Assembly: GCA_950295325.1 (NCBI GenBank)
Contig: OX485807.1
Location: 8,213,001-8,277,000, forward strand
DNA length: 64,000 nucleotides
Reading direction: 5' to 3'
Origin: Polytrichum commune
Taxonomy: Eukaryota > Streptophyta > Polytrichopsida > Polytrichales > Polytrichaceae
Of the stretch, positions 8,007 to 62,879 are shown in pieces; within the stretch, counting starts at the first letter, position 1; each line of letters opens with the position of its first letter. The notes below the pieces were generated by a model. It was not told the DNA's origin and did not search any database. It saw only the letters and a list, made by a program, of their open reading frames with translations. The position numbers were made by a program, and so were the translations under genes.

Positions 8007-9356
8007 TCATCCTACTAGATCAGTTCGGAATGCCGACCTCTGGACTTGAATGGAGTGGACGAGTTTCGCAAGCTCGATGAGGTCAACGTGGATGGCCTGC
8101 TTTCGTGAGTAATTTTTACACCACCGCACATGGTTGTAGCATGCATCCCAGCCTAAAAGAGAGTAAACCCCCATCAAGATATTATCTGGCGGTCGAATAC
8201 CCAGGAGGGGCTGCAATTCGATTGCAGTTGCATGCGTGAAGTTCCGAAATGCATCAGTATGAAAAAGATAAGGAAAGACTTCGATCACCACTGCCCCCGG
8301 CCTTGCAAAGAGGAAGTTCACATTCTGTGACCCATGCGGCACAATAAAGAAATCGTCTTCCGCCACGCTCTTCACTTGGTCGCAGAAACTGCCTAACCCA
8401 CTTGCTCTATGCTCAACAGGAACCATCAAAACCTCACTTATTACATCCCCTACATCAAGTTTGTTTGCAAGCCTCCGAGGGCCACTGGCCCTGTCAAGCA
8501 CTACGGCTTTCCTAACGGGCCAGGAAGCATTCGCAGGTTCTATCCCACAATATTTCAAAACTTTGGATCGCAGCTCAGCATTGGTCTCCACATCAGGTAC
8601 ATACTTTACACTCGTGGGCCCCGAAAACAACACAGCATCGTAGAAGCAGATAGAGTCATCTGCTCGGGTGGGTAGCTCTTGATACCTAACCTTCTGCTCT
8701 AATGCTTGCAACAATCCTCGCCCCCAGATCGAAACATCCTTCTCTGCTGCAAACCAGTGGATAGTGGCGGATCCATTCAACTGCTTGAAGAACATGGCAG
8801 GTAGTATTTTCTCAGCTTCGTGATGTGGATTTGGTTTCCCTCTCGGAAGAAACCGTTGATCCAGCACTAACCCAAACCCTGACATCCAGTGCCAACCCGT
8901 AGAGCAACTTGAATCATAGACTACTGGAACAGTCAACTCCTCTCCCCAAAACCGCATAAACTTCGGTACGTCATTGGTCCTCCGTAAACCCTCCATGCCA
9001 AGGTTTTCACAAATCCTTACCTTGTCGCTAGCGAAACATATGTTCTGCACTCTGGGAAAACATTCGGAGTTGCACTCTCCAGTGCAGTAAGACGATGAAT
9101 CTAAGAAAGGGAGTGGGGGCTCCTTCGAGGAGCATCCCCGACCAACATTAGGGTTTGGCAAAAATGAGCTCGGTAGTGATTGAGGGGAGAGAAGGTACAT
9201 AAGACATGCAGCAAACAGGAAGGAAAACAACGTCCATCGTATTAAAAGAGTGGGGATAGTGACCCCCCGATGGCGGCACCCAATCATCCATGCACTCAGA
9301 TTGCCTCTTCGCCTCCTCCTCTTACTCCTGCTCCCCTCCTGCATATGCATATGCAT
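8007..9356 (-). CDS. GT61-family (DUF563) glycosyltransferase, type II Golgi membrane protein
   Basis: Intronless frame of 449 aa. Residues 11-18 are an Arg/Lys cluster followed by one hydrophobic segment at about 33-57, the layout of a type II Golgi protein with a lumenal catalytic domain. The rest carries GT61 landmarks: CFYDAVLF at 237-244, VVLDR..GPRRLANK at 285-299, and the terminal block FFIVPHGSQNVNFLF..PGAVVIEVFPY at 336-363, where most GT61 proteins read HGAxLTN and PPGAxxIE. Four N-glycosylation sequons (Asn194, 276, 372, 415) and many cysteines suit a lumenal domain. GT61 enzymes add xylose, arabinose or GlcNAc to glycans; the sequence does not tell which. HGS instead of HGA and the loss of LTN put it in a divergent branch. 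Three closely spaced in-frame ATGs lie at the N terminus; the first is used. Confidence 0.87.
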   Translation of the reverse strand: MHMHMQEGSRSKRRRRRGNLSAWMIGCRHRGVTIPTLLIRWTLFSFLFAACLMYLLSPQSLPSSFLPNPNVGRGCSSKEPPLPFLDSSSYCTGECNSECFPRVQNICFASDKVRICENLGMEGLRRTNDVPKFMRFWGEELTVPVVYDSSCSTGWHWMSGFGLVLDQRFLPRGKPNPHHEAEKILPAMFFKQLNGSATIHWFAAEKDVSIWGRGLLQALEQKVRYQELPTRADDSICFYDAVLFSGPTSVKYVPDVETNAELRSKVLKYCGIEPANASWPVRKAVVLDRASGPRRLANKLDVGDVISEVLMVPVEHRASGLGSFCDQVKSVAEDDFFIVPHGSQNVNFLFARPGAVVIEVFPYLFHTDAFRNFTHATAIELQPLLGIRPPDNILMGVYSLLGWDACYNHVRWCKNYSRKQAIHVDLIELAKLVHSIQVQRSAFRTDLVG

Positions 9357-10880
9357 CTGCAGCAGAAGAATCTGTGTTCACATGCACCCATGCAGCAAAG
9401 TGAAAGCACAAATCGCCTAGCCTACAAACACCAACAGAATTGAATCGTGATGCGAATTCGAGTCGACTCAGACGAGGGAAGGAACTCATGATGCAATGGC
9501 CATAGCCACCAGAGCGAGAGAGGGGAGGGAGGTACTTGGAGTTTCTTCCCGGGCAGCCTTCCCTGCCCTGGTTGCCCGAAGGTACATTCTCTCCGACTTC
9601 CCATAACTTCGACGTCAGGGATGTCGAGGGAGAGGTAACTTGGAATGTGAAACCTTCGTGAAGGCAATCTTCGCTTTGAAACCTGTTGTTTTACGAACGA
9701 CATCTGTATGTGGTGAACGCATTGAACTCAGTAATTTCCAGGTACATTTGGATCTCCCAAGCTTAAACTTTGACAAATCTACAGTCAGAAATCTCTCCTT
9801 TAAAGTCACTTTGTGGATGTGGGCAGTACGTTTTACAAGCTTCAATTGTTGCTGGATTGTGCATAGAAATATTGTAGAGAATGATGTTCATGTGACATTC
9901 TCTAGATAATATTCTAGGATAATATTCTAGGTAATAGGGATTTCATTTTCTCAAAGTCCACTTACCCTGTTCACTTCTTATCATTAGCATCACTCAAAAA
10001 TTTAACCTAAATTAAGTCAGAATTAGAGAATAAGGAACACGCACTACAAGGCTCAAGATCTTGTCCAGGAGTCAGGATTTCGTTTATGTAGTTGACAAAG
10101 TATGTATTCCTTAAATGAAGGACACATGTAATGAGACCAAATCTTATGTGATGGGAGTTGCAAGAGCATCGACGATTCATGTGAATGGTAGGATGAAGGA
10201 GCAAACACAATCGCTACTATTGAAATGATTTCCAAGCTATTAATATGGGTCACAAGACAAACAAGGAAATACAACACATAGACAAGCGAAGGAACTTTGA
10301 ACTGACTGAATAGATCATATTCTACAACAACTTTGGAAACAGTTCGACATCAAAGGTTTAACATGACCATATGAAATGCACAACTCCTCGTTCTTAATTG
10401 TCAACCTCGTTTGCATGGAGAGGTATGGTTTTCAATCATGGAGACTGGAATTGATAACCTGCTTCTTCCTTCAACACTTGCTTAAGGGCAAGAGCATGTG
10501 CTTCAAAGATCTACCCGGAAGGCTATAGATAGTCACATTACGACCAGAAATAAATCGTGCAAGAGAAAAAATGGGAGAGCAAAAAGGAATCCATATCACA
10601 AGACGTAGCCAATTGAACAAAGGCGGAGGAGAAGCAGATCGACTAAAACACCAATAGGCATGAATTCCAGACACAGAATCGTAGAAAAATGATAGATCGA
10701 TCGTTGATAATTGAGTTTCTTCACATATACAAGGTCATTTTTCCAAACCAGCGCTCCCATAAGGAACGACTGGAGAGTCACTAAAGCTTTTCTCTACAAG
10801 GGGCCACTTCTGATGGAAAGCCCTCATCGCTACATTGTGACTTTCCTATGCGAGGAGTCAAAATATTGGTGAAGTCAATT
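9357..10880. other. Intergenic sequence between the GT61 and RAMP4 genes
   Basis: Both neighbouring genes are on the minus strand, so this stretch holds the GT61 leader and promoter (9357 to about 9650, moderately GC-rich) and the RAMP4 3' region (about 10450-10911). No further coding exon was recognised. Overlapping frames on both strands at 9422-9909 are not conserved sequences I know. Confidence 0.4.
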
Positions 10881-17491: not shown

Positions 17492-19099
17492 TAGTTTGGC
17501 AAACTTAGGATTCCTATAAAACCTTGGTGATTTACAAAATACTATCGTTTTACTAAACATACATACATACATACATACATACATACATAAATGTAGCCTA
17601 CAACATATGAATACATATCATAAAAACAAGGAAATCAACACTAAAGACATCAGGGATAATATTGTGGGTGCATGTTTGTATATGAACCCACATAATAAAT
17701 TAGAGAAATATCATAACCTCCAATGTTATAAAATGGGATTGAAATACAAAAGGCATCCACTTCAATATCCCCATTATTTTTAGTGTTGATTTCCTTGTTT
17801 ATAGTGTGATCCATAGTATTTACCATAAACATTGTTGTTTGAGTGGCCGATCACATGTACATTGATGTGTGCAATTAGGTTGCCTTCGCAAATGGGTTGC
17901 TTCTTTATCCAAGCAAGTTACGTTGGACAAAAATTAGATTACGAAAACATATGACTTTGTTTATTCATCCATATAGAAACCACAATAACTACATAATTTA
18001 TGTAAATTTATTTATTGTGGTAATAAGCATTCTAAATAGTATGGAATGTCGATATATTAGTGTGGGGCAACCTGATTGCACATATCGGTGCAGTTAACTT
18101 CTGAGGCCATGAACTGAAAAGGGATTTCTTAGATGTGGAATGCACTAGACCTGGTGCATTGCACTGCATAATGTATTGGTATTGGTCCATTCCTTGTGGT
18201 AGAATACATCAACACACCTCAATGAAGTTAAAGTGTGCATTATAAAGAGACAACAACTCACACCTTTGCTCATTGTAAACTATAACAAAAAAAACTCCAA
18301 ACACGTGGGATCAACCCCTAAGGTCCCATGCAAGAATTTAAAAACTTGGCAACATGGATGCCTAGCATGATTTCGCCCATTGCACTCCATTACTTTTGGG
18401 AATTACAATGTTTTGTCTAATTAGGCGTGGCTTACCATTCGGAGTTATGTGTTGTTGTAGCTTTTACCGACATTGTGGTTTCTTACCAACTAAGTTATAT
18501 CATATTTTTTTGGTGTGCATGCTAAACTACTTATTGTATTTGGATAAAAAAAATTATTATCTCATTAACAAGTTATAACCAACACGGAACTCTGAATGGT
18601 AACCCACACTAATTAGACAAAACGATGTAGCTCTTATGACACCATCTTGATGTACTTCCAGTCCCATTAAGCTTTTTGGACATTAGAATCAATTTCATTT
18701 CCTCGCAAACCCTACCCAATCCGCTTTGTGGGGACTGCAAGATGGCCTACCGCAAGAGAGTTAGGGCATAGAGAGATGGGTACCCAAATGGACAGGAAGA
18801 GTAGTCGCACTTAGCAAATCTCTTCTATGTTATACAGTATGTCAGAGGTGTTGAGAACAATACAAAAGGAAGATTGTGGCAAAAGGTCAGTAGTTTGGAG
18901 CTTGTGGTTTGCGGGCAGAGATGAAAGACGAATCTGCACACAAGAGCATCACAGGATCGAAGCTCAGAAAATGCTTCCCGGAGGATGTGAATCTGAGGTT
19001 TTATGTGTTTTGCATTAGTTTATACATGTGAATAATGCGATAATGCTTCAGAGATAGTTCAGGAATTCCTCCTGAGCAAAAAGAATCTGTTGTTGTGCA
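17492..19099. other. AT-rich intergenic sequence with a CATA microsatellite
   Basis: A CATA microsatellite lies at 17558-17589. The rest carries only short frames without known motifs. Confidence 0.35.
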
Positions 19100-19495: not shown

Positions 19496-20832
19496 CCAGA
19501 ACCCCAAAGTGTTGACATGGCCCTCCACACCCTTGAAGATGCTTTAGGCTTGGATCAAAACGTCAGTAGGTCAAGTGAAGTCTATTTGATGTGCCTATCT
19601 CAGAATAGGTTTGAGGATATATGGGCAGTCCAATCTCGACAATTGCCATAGTTTGACATTCGAAGCTTCTTTCTGTAGTTTGTTGCACTGGGTATCCATG
19701 GGTTTAAAATTGTCAAGAGACAAAGATTATTAACAGGTGACGTGGCCGGTGCCTCATGAAATGCTTCAGGACGAGATTTCTCAGAAGCTAAGTAGGGCAA
19801 GTTCATCACTGTCATGTAGTGGTTCAGCTTGTCATGATTTAAGGTATGTATTCGCTCTTCTTAATTGGAAACATGTATTTGAGTAGTATATTACAAGGTT
19901 CGTAATTTAGATTGGACACCAAAAGACACGTGTTACAATGAGATCGGACTATGGGCTCAAAATATGCACACGATATAGACACCATGTAGATAAGTTCAAC
20001 AATGACCACAATCGGGAGAGCCTTTGTGATCGTGTTAAGAGAAAGAGGATCTGCAATTTGTATTTCATAACTTTGCATTCCTACTACGACTTTTGAAACT
20101 TGAAATGACAAAGCCTTTGTGATATGCAATTGCTAACTGGATGGAATAAATCATGAGGTAATCCAGTGGACATAGATGTTTGTGGAGTTGGAATCCGCCC
20201 ACATTGAGTCCACATCCCTACGTTACTTGGAAGTTAGACCTATGCACAATCTCGAAGCATCCAAGAATATAAAAAGGGTCTGTGTGAATTTGACCAAAGA
20301 TGAACATGAGAAGAAGAAAAAACATTGCACTAAGATAATCAGGTGTTAAATGGTCACTTCAAGTTCTGCACCTGAGTCATCATAGGTTGTGACACACGCA
20401 ATAAGTGTAAGATGATTGTCATTTCCAAATCGTTTTCGTGGCCATTTCCTTCATGGTTTTTGGAGCTTATATGAATGTCAACAGTCAACATAATAGAGCA
20501 CTGCAAATTATGAAGAAAGTTGCTACGGCTTCGATTTCGGATTTGATAAGCATCTCATGCTAATTGCATGTTTCATATGAAAGGAAAAGTGGGCTAGTCA
20601 GAAGAAAAAAAAGTAACCATTTAAAGACCCCTTCACCTTAGAATTACACTCATTGATATAATGAGTCCACTTCATCATCAAAATGCCGGGTCCCGGACAA
20701 ACAAGTGAAAATATATGCTCTCTTGTCGAGGAGCATTGAACCAGCAAAATTGAATCCCTTGTCGAGGAGCGTAATAACAAAAGACTGTGTGTCTCCGACA
20801 GGGTCACCAGCAAAGGAGATGATGTCGGAGAC
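19496..20832. other. Intergenic sequence
   Basis: No gene or element ends were recognised. Short minus-strand frames at 19600-20129 have no known motif. Confidence 0.3.
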
Positions 20833-20913
20833 GTGCTCGGCAGGATTCGAACCTGCGCGGGCAAAGCCCACATGATTTCTAGTCATGCCCGATAACCACT
20901 CCGGCACGAGCAC
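20833..20913 (-). tRNA. trnS-AGA: tRNA-Ser(AGA), copy 1
   Basis: On the minus strand the 81-nt gene starts GTGCTCGTGCCGGAGTGG and ends TTCGAATCCTGCCGAGCAC. The seven-pair acceptor stem (GTGCTCG with CGAGCAC) is perfect, the anticodon loop CTAGAAA gives anticodon AGA, there is a long class II variable arm (TGGGCTTTGCCCGCG), and box B GGTTCGAATCC is intact. A CAA motif lies just upstream, as is usual for plant tRNA genes. The first T4 run downstream on the transcribed strand is some 50 nt away. The body matches plant cytosolic tRNA-Ser(AGA) as I recall it, except for the acceptor stem. Confidence 0.92.
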
Positions 20914-22198
20914 TTGATGTTTCAAGCCACAAAAATAATGCCATATATTTACTAGTTTTCCAGCAGATCCATAAGTTATTTTGCATTAAATGCTTGTTCC
21001 CGGCTAGGCATGGCGGATGGTGGAGTTGGGAAGAAAGTCCAACATGGAATGGACAGTTGATGTTTCAGTGAAACTTGGATAACTTATGTAATTGGGTGTT
21101 ATTCGGTTTGTATTGAGTCTAGAATGGTTGATTGATGGAGCTCGTAGTCCAATCTATTCTAAACACAAAACGTCTTGTTGGGTTTCATTCTTAGATAAAA
21201 CCTAACTGTACACCACTCAAATATAGGTGTCCGATTGAGATGATAAAACAAATAAGGCCAACGTGTCTTATGGTGGAGAGGACCACTTCAAATGTTTGGA
21301 ACAATTGTATTGTGAAATGTTGGAGTTTCGTGTATTGTTTTGTATAATCTTGCAAAACTAGATTAAAATTTGAAAATTTCTCCTTGATATGTGAACATTG
21401 TGTGAGGCCATAGCAATTGAGTTTCAAGTCACTTAAAATTGTGTGTGAGGTAGATGAGGCTAATGTGGACACCTCCAACTCTATGGAATCACCTAGCCAA
21501 TGGATTTGAGCATTAGAAGCTTGAGTAGGTTAATAGCAATTGCAAATCATGACCAAAGAATTTGAAATCGTTAAAATCGGAGTTGAGAAAGGTGTTGATA
21601 TAGACTCCGGAATCAAAGATTCTCTACTTCCCTATATGATGTTATAGGGGGGAACTATTTTATTGTTCGATGTTGTGAAACTAGACAACCTCATGAGCAA
21701 TTTCTACATGGGTTGTTTGCCAATGAAAACCAAGTTTGATGCCAATATTGGTTATGTCATCTCTCTAAAGTGGTCACATGTAAGATGAGATGTTGCCAAA
21801 CTGGCTTTTCATTATAGAATACCCACAATTCAAGTTGGTTGGCACCTTACAACCACATGTTGCCTCCTAATTTGCCCAAGTAGTTGCCTCCTAATTTCCC
21901 CACCTCACGCACAAGAATCCAGTTTGTCATAGCTCAATGACTAGCACTCCTAATTATGGAGGATGGTGGGTGTACTTCGACTTTTGCATCAAGGGAGTGG
22001 CTAAATTACCATGTATTACTCACCCACCAAATTAGAGTGATTGTATTGCCGATTAGGAGCCAAAAATATGTGTCATGTTAAGGAAGCTAACCGAATTAGC
22101 CTCATCTACCTTAGTTTGTATGAATCATCTTAATGAGTATTACGTTTGACTCTTCGGGATTGTGGGTGCAGTCTAATATCATATTTCATGAGATACGA
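20914..22198. other. Intergenic sequence with a family G fragment
   Basis: Positions about 21150-21255 resemble one arm of foldback family G (AACCTAACTGTACA, then CAAATATAGGTGTCCGATTGAGAT). No gene is seen. Confidence 0.35.
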
Positions 22199-22609: not shown

Positions 22610-24103
22610 TAAGCATTCCCTCCTCAGTAGATGATTAAATAGGTCCAAGTCCATACCATGATATAGAATCCCTTTGTGTGAACCCAATACCATCTGTAAA
22701 ATGAATATCCCATTAGTCTAGATATAGTTGGAAGGGGATGAGCTAGTGGTCTAACATGGATGATGTTTTGCTTATTTTTAATTTGTAAATAAAAATTACC
22801 ACATTACTTGGTCTAAAAAATTGACCATTCCCTCCGCTTCAATAATGGTGCAAAACCATTGGGTTCATATTACTCAAAAACGTATGCATGTGTCTTTCGG
22901 GTAGTCCTCTTGTTCTCCATCATTTATTAATCACATTTATAAATTAAAATTGTGTTGCATTAGCAAATCTATGATGAAATGTTCAAATAAAAAATCGGCC
23001 TTTCCGTGATTTAGCTATGGCTATAAAAAATGTATATGTGTTGTTTTTTTTAAACAAGTACCTCATAGAATTACCACTATTATGTATAATTTTAAAGAAT
23101 CATTTATTATGCATAGATTATGTCTATTGTGTCGACTGTTGAATATAGAGTAGTTGGTAAAATATAGTGGATGTATTCCAATCTCTATAAACATCTGTCT
23201 TAAAATGATATACGTTCTTCGATCCACACATGAACCGACACCATTCAAAAGTATATTAGGTGTCCAATTAGGATAGTGACCTAACTAGGCCCACTTAGAG
23301 AAGAGAAGAAACGTTGACCATGTGATCAGCGTGATTGGAATGCCCGTTCGACCCACCCTTGGAATTATACCCTCAGGGCATAATACCAGTGTTGCAAGAC
23401 TACTAACCCCTCTCGGGGTGGGCACTATAGTGACACACTATATTAGTTCCTAGCTAGCCACTAGTGCCTTGAGGATACCGGACATGGAATCCCCCCAAAG
23501 GGCTTTGAGGTACCCATACAACAAGGTCCAAGAACCCCCCACCATAGTAGGGTGGACTTACTTACATAGTATTAAGGCCCACTTACCTTAATACACAAAG
23601 TGAATTCACACGTGATGGACAACCGTAATGTACTAGATTAAGAATTTGGTGTATATCATTGTCACATGTTCTATCTTTTGAGCATGATTGCCAACCATAG
23701 ATGAAACATTATCTCAACCTAATGTGATAATATGTAGCCTCAATATGAATTTGAAGTTTATTCTTCTTTAGAACCATATTAACATTGAAGTGGTATGCAA
23801 CAACATGTATGGAATCAATATGCAACCAACACAAGTGCCTATACATCCATGTCTTATCGCTCTTATAATCTTAAATAGAGTACAACAAAATTTTGATATA
23901 GTTGCACGAAACACCTACACATTGTCCCTTATTACCGTGTGGTCAAAAACACGTTCATTCAAAAACATTGGCAAATAGTTTCATCAATAAGACAATTAGC
24001 ATTCCTTTAATTAATGTTGATTACAAGCACAACTATCAACCCTATGCTTTTTTAATTTATTAGGATCAACTACGAATTGATACAAATTTACGCACTTGTA
24101 GTA
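22610..24103. other. Intergenic sequence
   Basis: AT-rich, with a family G fragment at about 23205-23290 (GATCCACACATGAACCGACA, then ATTAGGTGTCCAATTAGGAT). A stretch at 23330-23540 is unusually rich in CCC/GGG words but shows no gene. Confidence 0.3.
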
Positions 24104-24233
24104 CATAACATTGTTCAAATCCATAAATGTGTCCTATGCGACTGACAATATTCCACGTAGGATTCCCGGATATTCCCCATATTTAGATAGAATATCCCCA
24201 CTGAACACTGTTATGGATCAGAATAATGTTATG
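24104..24233. mobile_element. Palindromic element family D, copy 1 (worn)
   Basis: The left arm (CATAACATTGTTCAAATCCATAA..GACTGACAATATTCCACGTAG..ATTCCCGGATATT) matches the perfect palindrome at 43150-43316. The right arm is shortened but still ends GTTATGGATCAGAATAATGTTATG. Both ends are therefore present, with an internal deletion. Confidence 0.75.
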
Positions 24234-24518
24234 TAAGAAACGATCTATAGAAAATGCTAATTAACTCAAAACGTTTGAAAATGTGTTCTTGAAGGTGTTG
24301 CGCACTTAGCTCCACTTATGAGCTTCCAAATATAAAACCATATATTTGAAATATGCAGGAAGTCATTTTAAAGGTTCGAAAATTCATTGGAGATAAGAAT
24401 CAAAGGTTTGTGAAATCCTTTGAGCATACATTATGAGTATTCAGTGATGCGCGGTTATCCATGTGTAACAGTTGATGGTATCGTGGTTGAAAAGATGTAC
24501 ACTAACTGAAGAGAAGTA

Positions 24519-24892
24519 CACTAAATATGTTATTTAGTGTCACACAGTCACATGGTATTTAATGTCACTGTGGTACTTGTTGGATGACACTTCTCATGAT
24601 TAAGTTGACAAATATTGTCATGGATGATGGATGAGTTCATCCATTGGCCAAAACCCTACCTTCTCTGGCGATGAAATGTAGTCATGGGTGATTGAAATTT
24701 GGATGAAAATTCACTTGGTAAGTGACAGTAATTGTAACACTATAAATCTATAATCCCCCACATGTTTACAAGGAATGAATGACAAACAACATTGGGTTAA
24801 CATTTAGTGTTTGTGACACTATTCTGTGGTTTACAATTAGTATTGAGCAAGACAATTATTAGAGTTGGTGACACTAAATATCATATTTAGTG
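24519..24892 (+). mobile_element. MITE family E, copy 1 (complete)
   Basis: A 374-bp element with 25-bp TIRs that differ at one position: CACTAAATATG(T/A)TATTTAGTGTCAC at each end. Each TIR is itself nearly palindromic (CACTAAATA..TATTTAGTG). TA flanks both ends (24517-24518 and 24893-24894), which would fit a Tc1/mariner-type TSD; the CACTA start would alternatively suggest the CACTA superfamily. The internal landmarks CATGG(G/A)TGATT.AAATTTGG, GTAAGTGACA, ACAAGGAATGA and TATTGAGCAAGACAA are shared with copies at about 41680, 45004 and 50408. Non-coding. Confidence 0.8.
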
Positions 24893-25374
24893 TAGCTTAT
24901 CAAATCATCAATAGAGCATGCATGCATTACCCTTATTATCCCTGAGATTTTATGAGTCAAATTTTTTGACACAAAAGTCATGTAATAGCCTTGAGAGATT
25001 CTATTGTAGAAGTCTATAACTTACATACACCTTTTTTTCTCTTAAAAAGTTTGAATGAATGGACAATTTAAAGCAATTTTCCCAGGGTAAGTCAACAAAT
25101 ATGGCTAGGGGCATGTCAACCAAAATTAGCACACTAATTTAACTTTGATTTCAAAATGACAAAGGCCCTTTCAAATGGTAAGTCACAAGATGTATAACCT
25201 CAATCCTAATGAGGAATTTCCTTTCTTTCACATTTTGACAGTTTCACTTCAAGAATGAACTCGCTACCAATTGCTTATTTACTAAGTGGAAGTGAGCATA
25301 TAAATTGAAATTCGAACACTAAAGGTGAGATGCACTCAATACAAGGCGACATTCGAGAATGCAATGACAAACTA

Positions 25375-28790: not shown

Positions 28791-29035
28791 TCCTTGATTT
28801 CTGCTCATTCCTCAAACCATAGCCAGCTCCATCAACACCACAATCACATGCAGTGCCTCTCCAGCAATAAGAGAGAATCAATCCTAGACAATGCAGGGAA
28901 AGCGCCCATTAAAAGCCTGTAGGGGAAGAAATTCTAATTGGAGCCAACATAAACAAACATGTTCTCATGTCGAACAAAGAACAACTGGCCGGGGGAAAAG
29001 GACTCACGAAAGAACATTCCCAACTCCCTGCGCAC

Positions 29036-29116
29036 GTGCTCGGCAGGATTCGAACCTGCGCGGGCAAAGCCCACATGATTTCTAGTCATGCCCGATAACC
29101 ACTCCGGCACGAGCAC
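29036..29116 (-). tRNA. trnS-AGA: tRNA-Ser(AGA), copy 2
   Basis: Identical over all 81 nt to the gene at 20833-20913, including the non-standard but fully paired acceptor stem GTGCTCG/CGAGCAC, anticodon AGA, long variable arm and intact box B. Flanking sequences differ from copy 1. On the transcribed strand a TTTT terminator appears about 40 nt downstream. CAA occurs shortly upstream of the 5' end. Confidence 0.92.
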
Positions 29117-29315
29117 CTGTCATGATTGAATCATCCATTAACAAAACCTCGTTGGTAAATAATAAGACTCTACGTTCCCCTTCGTTCCCACCCATAGGGG
29201 ACAAATATGTCAATGAATTGTAGTGGATGAAAATGTGGAAATTGTCCTCAATGGCAGCAAGGGTCCTCCAAGTGCACTATGTGACTTATTAGGGGCTTCT
29301 CATCTACTCCGTTAA

Positions 29316-35833: not shown

Positions 35834-36566
35834 TGGTGAGTTTCTACGTAGGCCGCTTGCCCACTAGATTCTGGATAATAGTAGGCTAGAGGTGTTTGCA
35901 TGTGGTTAAGCACAAGCCACCATCCAACCACATTCTAGCAATCCACTAGAATGTGGAGGGTTGTGGACACAAGTTGCTAGACTTCCATGTGTCCACTAAA
36001 GAAGCTTAAACTTACAAGTGTTGGTCATTGAAGGATTGAAGATCGGTTTTAGGAGGAGGAGGAGGTTACACTCTAACCTCCCTAATATCAAGCCCGCGGC
36101 AACCAAAGTGCACGTGATATTAAGGAGGTATGTAGTGTTAACTTGGATGCATGACAATAGAGAATCAATGTACCATGTGACATTATGGAATAACACAAAG
36201 TGCAACATTGCAATAACGATTACGATGACCATGTGATGCATGCAAGTGTGTGGTTTAAACTCTTTGGTGGCTTATTTTAATGTCATAACTTGTGATATAC
36301 AGTAGGGAAATGTGACAACAAGGGGGGGGGGATTTAAATTGAACACATCCGTTCTGCATAGTTTTGGAATAAAATAAAGGGAGTGACATTACAGAGGGTG
36401 ACATTACAAAGGTCATGTTATAGTAGGTGGGCCCAGATTGAAGAAAATGGGAGTAACTAGTTGGCACATACAAATCCTACCCCATCATATTCCCTCTACA
36501 TTTGGACGGATTTGTCCTTATTCACACTAGAATCTGGTGGACGAATGGCCTACATGGAAACTCACA
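35834..36566 (+). mobile_element. Tourist-like MITE family C, copy 2, interrupted by a 350-bp insertion
   Basis: Ends are GGTGAGTTTCTACGTAGGCC and GGCCTACATGGAAACTCACA. The first 235 bp and last 150 bp align with copy 1 (22199-22609), while about 36070-36420 has no counterpart there. The insert holds a short hairpin (CCTCCCTAATATCA facing TGATATTAAGGAGG, about 36078-36129) and a poly-G tract near 36322. Confidence 0.7.
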
Positions 36567-37224: not shown

Positions 37225-37447
37225 ACATGTGCCTTTATGTTGTTTGTTCTCTAGGTCCTCTCACGTAACCACACACAAATCAAATATAATATAGGCGTAT
37301 GATTGAGAAAAGCAACCAAATCAAATATATGGCATTGTGTGGGTGTTATTTGGTTATTTACCTTAATCAGACACCTATATTATATTTGGTTGATGTGTGG
37401 TTAGGTGAGAGGGATCAAAGGAACAAAACACCATAAACAACACATCA
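37225..37447. mobile_element. Foldback element family G, copy 1
   Basis: Nearly the whole 220-bp element is an inverted repeat with arms of about 95-100 bp and roughly 80 percent identity by eye. Best preserved is CCTCTCACGTAACCACACAC..CAAATATAATATAGGCGT against the inverted CCTCTCACCTAACCACACAT..CAAATATAATATAGGTGT. One-armed relatives lie at about 2264-2345, 21150-21255, 23205-23290 and 47415-47525. A transcript would fold into a long imperfect hairpin. Confidence 0.75.
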
Positions 37448-41679: not shown

Positions 41680-42948
41680 TGAGTGTCATATGGTATTTCA
41701 TGTCATTGCAGTGATTTTTCTAGTGATCCTTTCTTATGGTTAGGTTTACACATGTTGTCATTCTCACTTCTTATTTGTAGTTCATCCACATTTGGTATAT
41801 TCTACATCCTATCATTTTGGTATGAAATTGTTGTCACAAACGATTGAAATTTGGATGGAAAATCACTTAGTAAGTGAGAATAAATAATTGCAGCATCATA
41901 ACTCTATAGTGCCCAAATCCTTTTACAAAGAATGACAAATAATGTTAGGTTTACAGTCCACCCTCTATAAGTGTTACCTCTATAAGTGTTAAAATTCCAT
42001 AAGTGTTAACATTTTTTCTACTCCCTACTTGGGGAGACTACAATAACGTTAAGTGTTAAGTGTTAACTGATTGGCTACTCCCCTCTTTGTAATTTTGCCC
42101 TCTATATATGTTAACTTATTATTATACTATATAATACCATACAATACAATATACTGTAACATAGCACATGTAATATACTGTAACATACTGTAACATACCC
42201 CCCATTTAGAAATTATTAGGTTTTAGGATATTGACTGCAAGTCCCTCCCTCGTCAACTCAGTTTACCCTAGCAGGTTGAGCTAGTCTACCAGCGTTCGAA
42301 TTTCTGAGAATGTTGTTTTCGAATTTCAGACTTGTAGGGCGAATCACATACCATTAGAAAGCTATTGAGGAGACGATTCCAATGGTAGTAGTTTTGTCGA
42401 ATTCCGACTTCTAACGAGTGAGTTATGGTTGGCCGAAATCTGCCTTCCAAGTCTCCCGCGGCAGCGGCGACGAGTTTTGTCTGATTAATTTTGAGGGTGT
42501 TGTATTATTTTTGTGGATAGGGTTTGTGTCCTTGTGGTTTAGAGTCTGTTTGCATATGTCTTTCAATTTAATCTAGGACAGTAGAGATGGGGAAGGCTTC
42601 AGAGTTCATGCTTCAGAGTTCAGACCTCTATAGATGCCTTCTTCCATCCTAGAGGAGTGGAAATGGAGGAGTGAGACTCCTCAATTGTATTTTGGAACTT
42701 CATTTGGTATTATAACAATATTTTACTTGTGTTACATTTATACGTGTTATGTTTTGATTTGTTAAACTCTATATTTCTATAAGTGTTAACACTCTATAAG
42801 TGTTAACAATATTACCACTCCCAATTGTTAACACTTATAGAGGGTGGACTGTACATAAATAGTGTTGGTCACACTACAACACAAGTGGTTTCCAAGTAGC
42901 TTTGAGCAAGACAAATAGAACTGGTGACACTAAATACAATATGTAGTG
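41680..42948 (+). mobile_element. MITE family E, copy 2, split by an Emigrant-like insertion
   Basis: The right end GGTGACACTAAATACAATATGTAGTG matches copy 1, and the left part contains GTCATATGGTATTTCATGTCATTGCAGTG and GTAAGTGAGAATAA..TTGCAGCATCATAA..TCTATA blocks. Without the 41954-42851 insertion and one TA, about 370 bp remain, agreeing with the 374 bp of copy 1. The left terminus is approximate. Confidence 0.65.
41954..42851. mobile_element. Pogo/Emigrant-like DNA element, 898 bp, TA-flanked
   Basis: Ends are CAGTCCACCCTCTATAAGTG and the exact inverted form CACTTATAGAGGGTGGACTG, flanked on both sides by TA (41952-41953, 42852-42853). The TIR strongly resembles the plant Emigrant/Lemi1 end as I recall it (CAGTA.AACCTCTATAAATTA). 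Subterminal CTCTATAAGTGTTAA words repeat several times at both ends, as in that family. The interior contains no transposase frame, so it is non-autonomous. Confidence 0.8.
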
Positions 42949-43149
42949 TATGTCCTCAATCTCTCAATCCAAAATCTATATATATTCTCTCATTCACAAT
43001 AAGTATATTATATTACAAACTTGAAAATGCTTACAAGGATGTTCCATCAAGTTGTTTAAAGATGTACCCGGAATCTTATGCATGTGATCTACAAAATCCG
43101 TACAAACACTACCTTCGTTTACTTTTTCTTTCTTAAAACTATTTTCTTT

Positions 43150-43316
43150 CATAACATTATTCAAATCCATAACAATGTTCTGTGGGACTGACAATATTCC
43201 ACGTAGTATTCCCGGATATTACTCACATTCGGACTGAATGTGAGTAATATCCGGGAATACTACGTGGAATATTGTCAGTCCCACAGAACATTGTTATGGA
43301 TTTGAATAATGTTATG
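43150..43316. mobile_element. Perfect 81-bp inverted repeat (family D, copy 2)
   Basis: The left arm 43150-43230 and right arm 43236-43316 are exact reverse complements over all 81 bases, separated by the 5-nt spacer GGACT. Base comparison stops at once outside 43150 and 43316 (T opposite T). Relatives lie at 24104-24233 (both ends, internal deletion), 47653-47760 (worn) and 50316-50408 (left arm only). No TSD could be recognised. The perfect symmetry shows either very recent formation of this copy or repair of one arm from the other. Confidence 0.92.
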
Positions 43317-45003
43317 TCCTCTAACCTTGCAAGCTTCGTTCTATAGTATACAACCCAATGTGTGTTGTTATGTGAGGGACAAAAGGGTTGAAAATTTAGT
43401 GGTCAACTCGTGAAACTTTGTGTGACATTTTATCATGGGCATCGTGGCATGTGACAAAGGTCGTCTATAATTCCACACAAACCAAATAAGTATTTTAGTG
43501 GCAATGAATATTCCAAAAGCGAAAATATGGAAAGACTCCAACTAATCAATGCCTTGAAATGGTCACCTCTTTGTGTGGGTACATTGAGCAAATTACCTAT
43601 TGTGAGCACATTTTGATCACGTACTTTCAACGACAAGAGACTTAATTAATTTGGCTTAAACTATAGAAGAACTTGGTCAACTCCTTGGTACAACTACTTC
43701 ACTTTGGACTACTAGTCATTTTGTGTGCCCGAATGAAACCAACCATTCACGGTTCGGAGCCTCTTGACTTGTATACTTCGTACGTGTATTACATGACATC
43801 CATAATTATGAATTCAGTTCAACCACACTTATCTCACCTAATGGACTTCATGTATGTGTGTGTGTTCTATCTGAAAGTCATGTTGTCAATGGAAATGTCC
43901 ATCATAAGGTAGATGGGCTTTATTTGGTTTCTTTTTGTTGTTTGTTACCTTATACTACTTGGATTCACCCAGTTCAAATTTCGTCACGTCTGTGAATGCC
44001 TATGAAAAAGCTAAGAAAAATTCCATAAAATCTTGAAGCTAGTCTTGAATTGTTGTAAAGAAAAGAGAACACTATGTTGACTATTGAACTCAACATGGTT
44101 AACGACTCTTGAGTACACGGTTCAAGCTCCATTAATTACATGTCTTCTTGGTGTATGATCTTAAAAAGACATTGACTTTTTAGAGGTATAACCGACTAAA
44201 TTAGACCCAAAAGCAGTGAGTCTAGTAAAAGATTTTTGAACTCATGTCACCTTTGAGTGCACTATGGTGCATGTAAATTGCCTTGAGTAAATTTTGTTTA
44301 GACATGTATATTCCAAACTTGAATATTTGGTTGTGCATTAGAAACCGTTTAAGACTAAGATAAGCAAGCCTAAATTGGTTACTCGTTTTGAACAACCAAA
44401 CACCACAAAGACAAGTGTCTAAAAGAGATTGTTAGATGTTTAAAATGTGTTAACCTTCCTAAGTTCAATAGTCAATGTAATTGGGGAGGGGGGAGCCTAT
44501 ACATTAATCATGCGATGAGAATGAAGAAACTCACAAGAGTTCAATAAATTATGAGGAAAATGATTCCGAACATGATTTGGATCTACATGATTTGTAAATG
44601 TCTTTCCTTGTTTTTCCCTTTTTCTTTGGGCACAAATGGATTTCTATTGCAAGAGAATACAAATACAACTACGTCACCCAAAACCCCAAAAGGAGATGTG
44701 CTCAAAGGAGGCCGAACCGGTGACCACACATGAACTCAAAAACTTTCATAGGTACAAATTGCTTAATTCATACCCCATAAGAAGTGATTGCATAACAAGA
44801 GTGTCCGAGGAGATTTTTGGACATAATCGGTTGATAACCTTGTGTTTCCAAGTCTAACCGGTTACATGTTGACATCTTTCGGTATGTCTTTACTAAATAT
44901 TAGGGATTATTCCATAAATTTCTTTAAAACGGTTGTGATTTTGTCAAGTTTTGAACTCCAACCGGTCGTTTTTCAAACTCAACCGGTTCATCCGTAACTT
45001 TAT
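43317..45003. other. Intergenic sequence
   Basis: No supported gene. Frames at 43433-43912 and 44551-44857 have no recognised motif. An ACCGGT-type word (ACCGGT, ACCGGTT) recurs between 44717 and 45000. Confidence 0.3.
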
Positions 45004-45230
45004 GTCACCAATTCATCAGTCTTGCTCAATACTAATAATTGTAAACTTGCATGTGTTGTGTCACTAACACAAAATTTAAACTGAACATATTTTGTCATTC
45101 CTTGTAAATGGAAAGTGGGCATTAAAGATTTATAATTTTGCAATTATTGAGTCACTTACTAAGTGATTTTTCATCCAAATTTCTTTCATCCATGACAATG
45201 TTTCATTCATTCCAAAAATGTTAAGATGTA

Positions 45231-45547
45231 CTCCCTCTGTTTCACAATAAAACCATGGTTTCTGCATAAACTCCGTGCCAGAATAAAACCATGGTTTCGT
45301 TATTACCACTACTCATGCCTATCATTCATGGCTAACAATGGCAGTGCAGCTGGGCCTACTAATAAATATGGTATATTTATCTAAGAAGCTACAGTAGCCT
45401 CGGTAAATACTGTATACTCCGTGCCAACTTGCTAATTTTCGGCAGCTCCCAATTTTGGTTAAAAAACGCATTGTGGTTCAAAGATGGTCACTGTTCTTAA
45501 TCCCGCACTGAAATAGAAACCACGGTTTTATTTTGAAATAGAGGGAG
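45231..45547. mobile_element. Stowaway MITE (Tc1/mariner-type)
   Basis: A 317-bp element with the classic Stowaway ends: CTCCCTCTGTTTCACAATAA at the left and TTATTTTGAAATAGAGGGAG at the right, flanked by TA on both sides (45229-45230 and 45548-45549). Inner copies of AAAACCATGGTTTC and AAACCACGGTTTTA extend the inverted repeats. Non-coding. It sits inside family E copy 3. Confidence 0.93.
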
Positions 45548-45619
45548 TACAATATACCAAAACTTTGTTTCAGTAAGTGGCATTTGGATGAACTTAAACG
45601 TAAGCCGGGATGACAATAC

Positions 45620-47414: not shown

Positions 47415-47525
47415 CTTTGTCTTTTAAACATGTGTCTGCATAGCATTTAGTTATTGATCCTCCTCACCTAACCACACATCAATCAAATATAGATGCCCGA
47501 TGAAGTGAAGTAATCAAATAACACC
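47415..47525 (+). mobile_element. Foldback family G, one-armed copy
   Basis: Matches the left arm of 37225-37447: TTTTAAACATGTG, then CCTCACCTAACCACACATCAATCAAATATAGATG, then AATCAAATAACACCCACATG. The complementary arm is missing. Confidence 0.6.
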
Positions 47526-47652
47526 CACATGTCCCAAGTATCTAACTACATTAATTATCATGATCAATGCATGTTACTATCAGGAGTTACGCAATGTAAT
47601 AATGTCTCACTCAAGCGTTCAATTTTTACTAACAAATGTCCAATAGTTTGTT

Positions 47653-47760
47653 CCATAATGATGCTCCGTGGGACTGAAAATATTCCACAAAATATCCCCT
47701 AATATTTCCCACAATCATATTGAATGTGGAATATTGTTAATTCCATAGAATATTGTTATG
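47653..47760. mobile_element. Palindromic element family D, copy 3 (worn)
   Basis: Retains CCGTGGGACTGAAAATATTCC and, inverted, GGAATATTGTTAATTCCATAGAATATTGTTATG around a TTGAATGTG centre, so both arms survive with many substitutions and gaps. Confidence 0.65.
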
Positions 47761-50315: not shown

Positions 50316-50408
50316 CATAACCATGACATTGTTCATATCCATAACAATGTTTTGTGGGATTGACAGTACTCCACGTAGTATTCCCGGATATTCCCCACAT
50401 TCAGACTA
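50316..50408 (+). mobile_element. Family D left arm (copy 4), fused to family E
   Basis: CATAACCATGACATTGTTCATATCC, AACAATGTTTTGTGGGATTGACAGTACTCCACGTAGTATTCCCGGATATT and CCACATTCAGACT correspond to the complete left arm and centre of the 43150 palindrome. The right arm is absent. Confidence 0.75.
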
Positions 50409-50607
50409 TCATGGATGATTCAAATTTGGGTAATGAATCACGTAGTAAGTGACACTATAAATCTATGATGCCCAAGTGTTTTTTTTCTTACAAGGAATGA
50501 TAAATGTTGTTAGGTTGAGATTAAGTGTTGGTGACACTGCACGGGTGGTTTGCGATTAGTATGGAGCAAGACAAATAGAATCGGTGACACTAAATATAAC
50601 ATCAAGT
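50408..50607 (+). mobile_element. MITE family E, copy 4 (right half only)
   Basis: Begins at the internal block CATGGATGATTCAAATTTGG and runs collinear with copy 1 through GTAAGTGACA, ACAAGGAATGA, ATTAGTATGGAGCAAGACAA and the right end GGTGACACTAAATATAACATCAAGTG. The left half is missing exactly where the family D arm ends. Confidence 0.7.
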
Positions 50608-52106
50608 GTCCAATCTCCCAATTATATCATTAAGTGGTAGTTGATTGTTTTCCTTCAACTCCCGTTGTTGAGGCTTTTGCCACAATTACTATCTTCCTTT
50701 CATTACGATCCATATAAAATTAGCAATGAAGCTAGTTTGATTTATATACAAGATAAGCAATGTAAGTAATTGGCAAGTATTCTTTCACATGATATTAAGT
50801 ACAACTTTTAGACTTATTAAGATGGTTTATCATTTGAAGTTATGCATTTGCTACGACTTTTCACAAAGAGTATTGATATGTACTACATAAGGAAGGTTAT
50901 GTTCCTTGACGTGCACACTACCTATTTATGTTATATGGGTAAAGAATTGCTAAGATTGGTAATACGTTATGCATAACTCCAAATGGTAAACCACCATAAT
51001 AAGTGTGAGATGGTGTAGCTCCCGAAGCCCAAGAGAATCTTAAGTAGATGTGAAAAGCACCAAAGTACTCATGGAATGCAATACATTGCATGAGAGTTTT
51101 GATCCCAATGCATTCCATACAAGAGAGTGCTTGAAACACATGTGATGAAAACCCCAAAGTGCATTATAAGCTTACCATTACAATCATATAAAGAAAGAGA
51201 GTACACAAAACCTTTTCGAAATCTAGTGGTCCCAAACTATTCATCATCAACCTTCACAAACTATCTTGCAAGCAGTGGGTGGCAGCCACACTAAGTTGTG
51301 CAATGAGGTTGCCCATGCTAATTTGTCGGCATTCCACACTATTTTGAAAATTTTATTACCACAACGTCAAAACACAATATTTCGTTATATTGTGGTTGCT
51401 ATGAACAAACCTATTCAGTTTTTCCTTCTATTATTTGATTTTGATCCAAGATAATTTGCATGAGTAAAGAGGTAACCCAGTCACAAAGGCAACCTAATTG
51501 CACACAAATCAATGGAGAGAGAGCGAGAGAGAGAGAGAGAGACCATATTCAATGCCAAGCCAATTAATCATAAGGTAGCAATGCCTTAAAGTAACGTTTT
51601 CCTTTTGGCGACACGTATTTTTTCATCCTTAAGCCCTCAACAAGTGAGTGTTACAATGGTGCCATCAAGTAAGTCATTGTTAAGGTGATTAATCATATGT
51701 GGCATCGAGTACAAAAGATAGCACCACTTAACATTATTTAGCTATATGGTTATGTTCCATACTATATTTGGCATGTGACATGGGCCTCCGATATCCTACC
51801 TTCATGGGAAGAAACTTAGATAATAGGAAAAAAAATTGACAATAGTATGGAAGTGTTGGTATTATCATTGGAATGTGTTGAATAGGTAGTATTTTAGCGA
51901 ACAATGATTCATGTGAATAGTGATGAGAGTATAACTCCACCCGCATTTTCAATTGTTGGCCTAAATGTATGAATAACATACGAATGTTATTGCTTTGTTT
52001 GGGGGACCCACAAAATATACTTGTCATATTCTAGGGTCAGTGGAATTGACCCACATGGCTGAATGATGCTATGCACTTTTGCCATTCATATATAATAGTA
52101 GTGTAA
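50608..52106. other. Intergenic sequence with a (GA)n tract
   Basis: A GA microsatellite lies at about 51514-51542. No gene is seen; frames at 50918-51157 and 51734-52027 have no recognised motif. Confidence 0.35.
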
Positions 52107-60408: not shown

Positions 60409-61802
60409 ATTCGGAGCGCCTTTGATTCGGAGGGAAGTTTTGGGTAGTGGTGCTTTTCCAGGGAAAGTGGGGAGCTTGCTTCCGGCCGCTGCTTGCCAAA
60501 GCTAGTCTACCTTTTGTGCCTTGAGCCTTGTTCGTGGTATCATCTCATCTTCGACAAGCAGGTTTGTAGTCTATGCCTCTCATCTTCTCTCTTCTTCACC
60601 TCAGAGTTGAGTTGAGGGGCCTTTGTCAGGTGCCACCTTTCTGTTCCTGTTGCCTGCCTGGCCCCTTCGATCGTGCACCACCTTCGATCCCCAATTTGAC
60701 GTTCTTCCAATTCATCTCAACTCTAGCTGCTTCACTCATTGCGCATTGGGTGTGGAGACATGCGTGGATTGTGTGTGTGATAGGCTGGTGCTCTGGTAGT
60801 GCGTTGGAGGTGAAATCTCACACAACCAAACACACACGAAGAGAGAGGGAGGAAACTGGGTATTTACCCTTGCAATAGCCCTGAACCCGTAATGGTGTAT
60901 TTTTGCTTCTCAGAGGATGCTTGCATTGCAGATTCAGCGCCGGTGGTGTATGCATATGCGCATCTTTGCACCTCTGAGGTAGTAATGGGTTATAGGAATC
61001 AGCTCACGGCAAGTTTCAAGGGCTCAATTGGATTTCGGCAGCCTTGGGTTTCTTGACAAAGCTTTGCGATGATTCTGGACCGATTCCATGTTCGTGATCT
61101 ACTTGTAGCAGTCTACCAATGCTTGTGTGAAATTGATCGCTTTTAAGTACATGCTACCAGCAGAAATTTGTGGGACCGTTGCGTCCTGGTGATCTGAGGC
61201 AAAGAGTTTTGTTTGAAGACTCCCCTCCTCTCCTCCCACTCTAACTCTATCTACAAATGCTTGCCGTCTCAGCAGGTGCAGCCATTGATCCTATCCTGCG
61301 TCCCCTAGGTCTGGCTGCCCATCGATGATTCCGCCGGGGCTCATACTGTTCTCACTCTCTTTCTGTCAGACACGTAATTGAACGCCGGCCGATCGTGGCC
61401 CTCGTCCACATTGCGCCGGGGAAGCTCCAGCAGCCCACCAATTCTCCCTCCGATATTACACCACTGAGTTTCCTCCCAAGTTCCAGCTTCTGGCACTCTT
61501 GTCTCTTGCCGGTGGCAGATTTGGGGAGCAGTTATGAGGTTGAGTGTTGTGGTACTCGTATGCTGCTGTTGAGGGTTAGGCTTGGGACATCATCATCATC
61601 ATCATCATCGCCGCCGCCGGAGGCAGGCGGGCGCGAGCAGTAGGGTGGCCGAAGAGGGTATGGTCAGATTGCACTCTCGCCGTCCGAACAGCGAAGAATT
61701 GCAACTAGTGGAGCGCGAAGGAGGAGCGGAGGAGAGGACTGAAGGGAGGTCATGTGGTGGGGCGGGGATAATTAGGCGGGGCAGGAGGAGGACAGACGAG
61801 AG

Positions 61803-62879
61803 ATGGATTTGGCAGGATCGCAGGAGAGCAGCGAGGAGAAGCCCAGGTCACCACCGCAACAGCAGCAGCATCCGCATCCACATCCGTATCCACATTCGCA
61901 ACCGCATCCCACCATTATGCCCGCACCCACACCCACACCGGTGCCAACTCCCACCGCCATGCCGCCCCCACCAGCAGGTGCGGTTCTCACCTTCTCCTCT
62001 GCTGCTGCTGATGCGACTCCCAACTTCCCGGTACCCGCACCCGCAGCAACTGTGAGCTCGCAACAAGAGCCGAAGCTGAAACTTGCGACGAGCGGGAATG
62101 GGGGCGCGTCGCCTTTGCAGCAGCAGCAGGCCGCGGAGGCCAGGGAGATCCTACGCTTGAATGCTCCTCAGCAGCAGACTGCAGCATCGTCAGCGAAGAT
62201 TGCCAGACCTGGATTGGTGCGGTACCGCGACTGCCAGAGGAACCATGCGGCCACCATCGGCGGCCACGCGCTGGACGGGTGCGGGGAGTTCATGCCGGGA
62301 GGGCCGGACGGGAGTCCCAACGCGCTTCGCTGCGCGGCTTGCGACTGTCACCGCAATTTCCACCGTCTCGAAGCGGAGGGGGAGCCTCCGCTGTGCGAGT
62401 GCCGTCGCGCGAAGCGGCCCGCATTGGCATTGGCGGGCCCGAGCTCGCTGGCGGGCGGTGTCGGGATACCACAGCAGCAACAGCAGCTCGTCGCGGCATC
62501 GCCAGCCACGCCCGCGACGGCGATGACGATGACCACACTGGCACTAGCCACGCCCGCGACGGCCATGCAGCAGCAGCAGTATCAGCAGGCGCGGGGCCCG
62601 GCGATGGCATTGAGTGGCGGACCGGCTAGCAGCGATGAGCAGGAGGGCGGGATGAGCGCGCACGGCGGCTCGCCGTCGGCCATGAAGAAGCGGTTCCGCA
62701 CCAAATTCACGGGTGAGCAGAAAGATAAGATGTGCGCGTTCGCTGACAAGCTGGGATGGCGGATGCAGAAGCACGATGAGGCCGCCGTGCAGGAGTTTTG
62801 TGCCAGTGTGGGGGTAAAGCGACATGTGCTCAAGGTCTGGATGCACAACAACAAACACACCTTGGGGAAGAAGCCATAG
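61803..62879 (+). CDS. ZHD: Zinc-finger homeodomain (ZF-HD) transcription factor
   Basis: Single-exon gene of 358 aa encoding a plant-specific nuclear transcription factor. The N-terminal third (about 17-80) is low complexity: polyglutamine, alternating His-Pro (23-36) and Pro-Thr repeats. The ZF-HD dimerisation finger spans about 138-191 with the signature YRDCQRNHAA..GGHALDGCGEFMPGG and metal ligands Cys144, His148, His155, Cys160, Cys177, Cys180, His183 and His187. A Q/A-rich linker follows. The homeodomain occupies about 295-356 (KKRFRTKFT start; recognition helix with Trp346 and the ZHD-typical WMHNNKH). The C terminus ends shortly after, as is usual. Lack of introns in the coding region is typical of ZHD genes. 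MIF mini-proteins keep only the finger; this one has both domains and is a full ZHD. In angiosperms these factors regulate floral, vascular and stress programmes; the exact role here is unknown. Confidence 0.95.
   Translation: MDLAGSQESSEEKPRSPPQQQQHPHPHPYPHSQPHPTIMPAPTPTPVPTPTAMPPPPAGAVLTFSSAAADATPNFPVPAPAATVSSQQEPKLKLATSGNGGASPLQQQQAAEAREILRLNAPQQQTAASSAKIARPGLVRYRDCQRNHAATIGGHALDGCGEFMPGGPDGSPNALRCAACDCHRNFHRLEAEGEPPLCECRRAKRPALALAGPSSLAGGVGIPQQQQQLVAASPATPATAMTMTTLALATPATAMQQQQYQQARGPAMALSGGPASSDEQEGGMSAHGGSPSAMKKRFRTKFTGEQKDKMCAFADKLGWRMQKHDEAAVQEFCASVGVKRHVLKVWMHNNKHTLGKKP

Follow-up and report, generated by a model that had tools for sequence, protein, structure and literature searches.

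The window, by which we mean the whole stretch of 64,000 nt analysed here, corresponds to positions 8213001-8277000 of contig C5 in the Polytrichum commune genome (407.8 Mb in 64 contigs; the seven contigs viewed span 42-78 Mb). Domain scans of 10 of its 28 open reading frames (ORFs) revealed a ZF-HD dimerisation domain encoded at 61776-62876 and a glycosyltransferase 61 at 8010-9377, and no ORF of at least 110 aa is present between 32602 and 46756, the interval that includes the hairpin described below. Two tRNA matches were obtained from Rfam for the window; two tRNA genes occupy 86-bp stretches (20831-20916 and 29034-29119) that are 98.8% identical and lie 8.2 kb apart.

The hairpin consists of two 81-nt arms, exact reverse complements of each other, which enclose a 5-nt loop (Table 1), just as the first-pass annotation of this DNA had claimed; the three worn relatives that it had listed are likewise present. 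A scan of the window for inverted repeats spaced within 2 kb returned 38 pairs, among which the hairpin is the longest and, of the 25 longest, the only one at 100%; the second-longest has arms of 65 nt at 83%. Folded as RNA, the hairpin gives a single uninterrupted 81-bp stem of -142.9 kcal/mol, compared with a mean of -34.6 kcal/mol (sd 4.1) for shuffled controls (n = 200). Its flanking dinucleotides are unequal, so that its own 2-bp target duplication is not intact.

Table 1. Parts of the hairpin, its flanking dinucleotides and its relatives (positions in the window).
Feature	Positions	Strand	Remarks
Left arm, 81 bp	43150..43230	+	Starts with the element end CATAAC
Loop GGACT	43231..43235	+	Sole asymmetric part of this copy
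Right arm, 81 bp	43236..43316	+	GTTATG at its end
Left flanking dinucleotide TT	43148..43149		Target-duplication position
Right flanking dinucleotide TC	43317..43318		Equals TT at 1 of 2 bases
Worn relative, second arm shortened	24104..24233	+	Both arms; TA on each side (24102-24103, 24234-24235)
Worn, incomplete relative	47641..47760	+	Both arms, about 78% and about 86% identical over the matched parts
One-armed relative, 89% identical	50322..50408	+	A different repeat starts at 50409

The window also contains several worn copies of a second repeat family with GTGACACTAAATA motifs (24671-24893, 41803-41955, 42861-42949, 44999-45230 and 50409-50609), the last of which directly adjoins the one-armed relative. 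A composite element made of the hairpin and a neighbouring repeat was considered and rejected, since among 39 other copies examined only L031 has that repeat next to it. Further imperfect hairpins occur at 37257-37412 (83%), with a relative at 47454-47529, and at 17621-17803 (77%), and an inverted repeat at 45227-45551 with CTCCCTCTGTTTCA-type ends is, we presume from its appearance, a Stowaway MITE.

The hairpin is one copy of a whole mobile element of 167 bp, CATAAC...GTTATG, palindromic from end to end. As the first-pass annotation had proposed, the genome was searched to determine the number of copies, their arm identity and their target duplications. With the 167 bases as query, at least 39 further places were found (40 scored of 2037 candidates), with matches of 150-169 bases at 83-90% identity; as every copy is a palindrome, the matches fall on both strands. 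From searches with four query copies we then assembled a set of 100 copies, the hairpin included, chosen by similarity; the copies found in this way have both arms, in a sample selected for that, and not the single arm that would have spoken against the annotation. An estimate of abundance came from 20 stretches of 10 kb taken at fixed coordinates, in which two copies were found and none in the reversed control; scaled to the genome, this corresponds to roughly 4,000 copies, with wide Poisson limits of about 500 and 15,000. The window, with its four copies, is denser than this sample predicts.

By its size and its 81-bp arms, the element falls within the definition of a MITE as worded in a passage of PMC11560428 (50-800 bp, terminal inverted repeats of at least 10 bp). 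It is also a high-copy element, judging by the 100 copies read and by the fixed-coordinate sample, and the family has a target duplication of 2 bp, within the 2-10 bp of MITEs, which the hairpin copy itself is without. The family is MITE-like and presumably non-autonomous. Literature searches with the end sequences CATAACATTA/TAATGTTATG returned no plant-transposon title among the matches listed, and no title or abstract opening described a CATAAC...GTTATG family, which does not prove it unpublished.

The target duplication was read from the copies whose ends were scored as intact, i.e., CATA...TATG, which are 68 of the 100. The two flanking bases on the left equal those on the right in 51 of these 68, against 9.2% in mismatched left/right pairings, and in the first copy set they had been equal in 21 of 27. 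Thirteen dinucleotides are represented among the 51 matching duplications, AA (12), TT (6) and TA (6) being the most frequent; the element therefore duplicates 2 bp of arbitrary sequence on insertion, without specificity for TA.

This feature separates the family from the known MITE groups with which it was compared. Tourist-like (PIF/Harbinger), hAT-, Mutator- and CACTA-type MITEs are, like the palindrome family, inverted-repeat mini-elements with no coding capacity, but their target duplications measure 3, about 8, about 9 and about 3 bp, respectively, instead of the 2 bp found here. An origin from hAT or Mutator, with duplications of 8 to 9 bp, was rejected, as no copy out of 68 agreed at 6, 7 or 8 bp and none out of 27 at 9 bp. 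CACTA was rejected since the termini are CATAAC...GTTATG, rather than the CACTA/CACTG of that superfamily, and since the 3-bp signal is absent (3 of 68 copies agree, control 2.7%, with no signal from 3 bp upward). Classical foldback elements resemble the family in that the arms make up almost the whole element, but the internal subrepeats and the duplications of about 9 bp that accompany their long arms are not seen here. Stowaway-like MITEs (Tc1/mariner) resemble the family in being short, present in high copy number, hairpin-forming and flanked by a 2-bp duplication; they differ by duplicating TA and by ending in CTCCCTC, as opposed to an arbitrary dinucleotide and CATAAC. Only 6 of the 51 duplications, with their 13 dinucleotides, are TA and, since plant Tc1/mariner elements always duplicate TA according to a statement in PMC10741241, the family is not Stowaway. 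The 3-bp result also rejects Tourist/PIF-Harbinger (TAA/TTA), for which a 3-bp TAA duplication is given in a passage of PMC11560428. An arbitrary 2-bp duplication sets the family apart from every standard plant superfamily considered here, and it points to a transposase still to be named.

Longer elements carrying the ends of the palindrome were sought in the window plus 200 kb, and one candidate was found together with pairs at chance level. The candidate, L122:4818-5570 (C5:47,004,818-47,005,570), is 753 bp long, has perfect inverted ends of 14 bp (CATAACATTACTCA) and is bordered by GG left and right; it contains a nested repeat that also occurs in the window near 36067-36401. It is possibly a longer relative of the family and is only a lead, because the same scan also yielded the chance pairs.

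The perfection of the hairpin stands out against its relatives. Within-copy arm mismatch averages 16.2% (sd 4.8%) over the 100 copies, and the lowest values are 0 of 81 for the hairpin, 1 for copy L084 and 3 for copy L007, followed by 6; at the mean rate, the chance of 0 mismatches in 81 is about 6e-7. Twenty-six sites count as variable, the minor base being carried there by 15 arms or more. At 10 of them (p<0.01), or 14 (p<0.05), the arms of a copy match more often than chance predicts; at site 57, for example, they agree in 87 of 98 copies, against 52.5 expected, while sites 24, 26, 33, 41, 63, 64 and 81 gave no agreement beyond chance. For rare variants, meaning those carried by 8 arms or fewer, mirroring within a copy was counted 23 times versus 4.3 expected (maximum of 13 in 500 permutations); in the first set of 40 copies, 14 were mirrored versus 4.0 expected, and at least one of 1000 permutations reached 14. 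These results bear out the deduction of the first-pass annotation that perfect arms imply either a recent birth or a recent arm-to-arm homogenisation.

Asymmetries inherited from copy to copy are, instead, faint. When arms were oriented by the loop, no signal of inherited asymmetry was detected in 40 copies, and a test that needs no orientation, applied to 100 copies, came out slightly above the per-site swap control, with a mean abs(D) of 2.405 versus 2.309 (sd 0.023) and 65 pairs with abs(D) of at least 9, versus 47.9 expected (maximum of 66 in 200). This small excess of common arm-specific differences reflects either a few imperfect sources or a sample biased by the mode of search. Since arm agreement is strong and arm-specific differences are barely common to copies, the source copies must have been near-perfect palindromes of several mirrored sequence types, whose descendants diverge between arms after insertion, the divergence being mainly C-to-T changes. 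The existence of mirrored source types also means that changes in a source must reach both arms. In yeast, template switching homogenises the arms of inverted repeats of up to 16 bp, according to PMC8604942; such quasipalindrome correction, by which imperfect inverted repeats become perfect, is described there for short arms, while here it would act on 81-bp arms, in the line of copies from which a transposon spread.

With sites divided into source-type and decay sites, a split made after the arm-agreement results were seen, the hairpin has 4 decay-type changes over both arms (2 per arm), the lowest of the 100 copies, whose mean is 6.9 per arm. Thirteen of the 99 other copies have it as their nearest neighbour, a number equalled by copy L032, and its own closest copy is 91.7% identical; judged by these comparisons, it sits near the family consensus, without a recent sibling in the 100-copy sample. 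The foldback-type mobile element proposed by the first-pass annotation is thus supported by copy count, arm identity and target duplications, but its description as active is not, the closest other copy being only about 90-92% identical.

On this evidence we propose, with a probability of about 0.72, that the hairpin arose when a MITE-like, non-autonomous DNA transposon, composed only of two 81-bp inverted arms and a 5-nt loop, inserted here recently. The data suggest that new copies of the family begin as perfect palindromes and wear down after landing. As judged from the flanks, the family moves by cut-out and insertion with duplication of an arbitrary 2-bp target, by means of a transposase presumably supplied in trans. 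Arm-arm covariation indicates near-perfect sources, in which a change in one arm would be passed on to the other, probably through template switching on the hairpin. Once a copy has inserted, its arms decay independently, mostly from C to T. The arms of the present hairpin would still be perfect because it parted from such a source only a short time ago; its low decay would be due to the recent insertion. Two observations stand against this reading: the flanks TT/TC are not a 2-bp duplication, and no sibling above about 92% was found, though a live source should leave some. In addition, flank agreement does not fall across terciles of increasing arm mismatch (16/22, 14/22 and 21/24), so that arm wear is no clean clock, and neither clock is fully trustworthy.

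The main rival is a recent in-place homogenisation of the arms of an old copy, brought about either by template switching as the DNA was replicated or by the repair of a hairpin that had been extruded. The unequal flanking dinucleotides are what an old copy would show, the yeast precedent mentioned above documents such homogenisation in arms of up to 16 bp, and the hairpin carries a mirrored A at site 72 that is found in just 1 other arm of 198. In copy L084, which has a single mismatch, C-to-T-type changes are mirrored at three sites that otherwise behave independently in the two arms (33, 63 and 64), and by its sequence this copy looks more like a product of in-place repair. For the hairpin itself we consider this explanation unlikely, as whole 81-bp arms would need conversion and an old arm should have left about 7 mirrored decay-type changes, whereas there are 2 per arm.

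A different proposal, for which we see little probability, is that transposition itself renews the palindrome, one arm being copied onto the other, e.g., by snap-back synthesis on a hairpin intermediate. If true, every new copy would start out perfect, even from an imperfect parent, and both the always-mirrored source types and the scarce inheritance of arm-specific differences would be explained.

The first-pass annotation had also put forward a young miRNA or hairpin-siRNA gene. A transcript would form the perfect 81-bp stem, and MITE-derived miRNAs are reported in plants, 171 of them in barley according to a passage of PMC11560428; however, Rfam gave no match at the gathering threshold at the hairpin, which is a transposon over its whole length and forms a repeat with thousands of relatives rather than a hairpin derived from a gene, and small RNAs siphoned from it would be a by-product, so a dedicated locus is very improbable. 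Its transcript would nonetheless be a perfect double strand and thus a likely source of siRNAs, as predicted for MITEs generally. Lastly, chimeric reads can yield perfect palindromes, but an assembly or library artefact (foldback chimera) is scarcely credible for a palindrome that ends exactly at the element ends common to other copies and whose flanks are not inverted.

If the hairpin is, as we favour, a recent insertion, a striking structure becomes a dated member of a large family. About 100 palindromes of one origin constitute a natural series in which birth state and decay are separable site by site, and which opens a direct test of whether arm identity is kept by in-place repair or renewed at transposition, and for how long.

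Two copies are accompanied by tandem rearrangements. At L023:391-711 (C2:35492890-35493210), three direct tandem copies of the left arm precede a single right arm. Beside the copy at C2:68353306, L011:495-1025 is a tandem array of 16 units of 33 bp from the outer right arm, a minisatellite born from the palindromic element.
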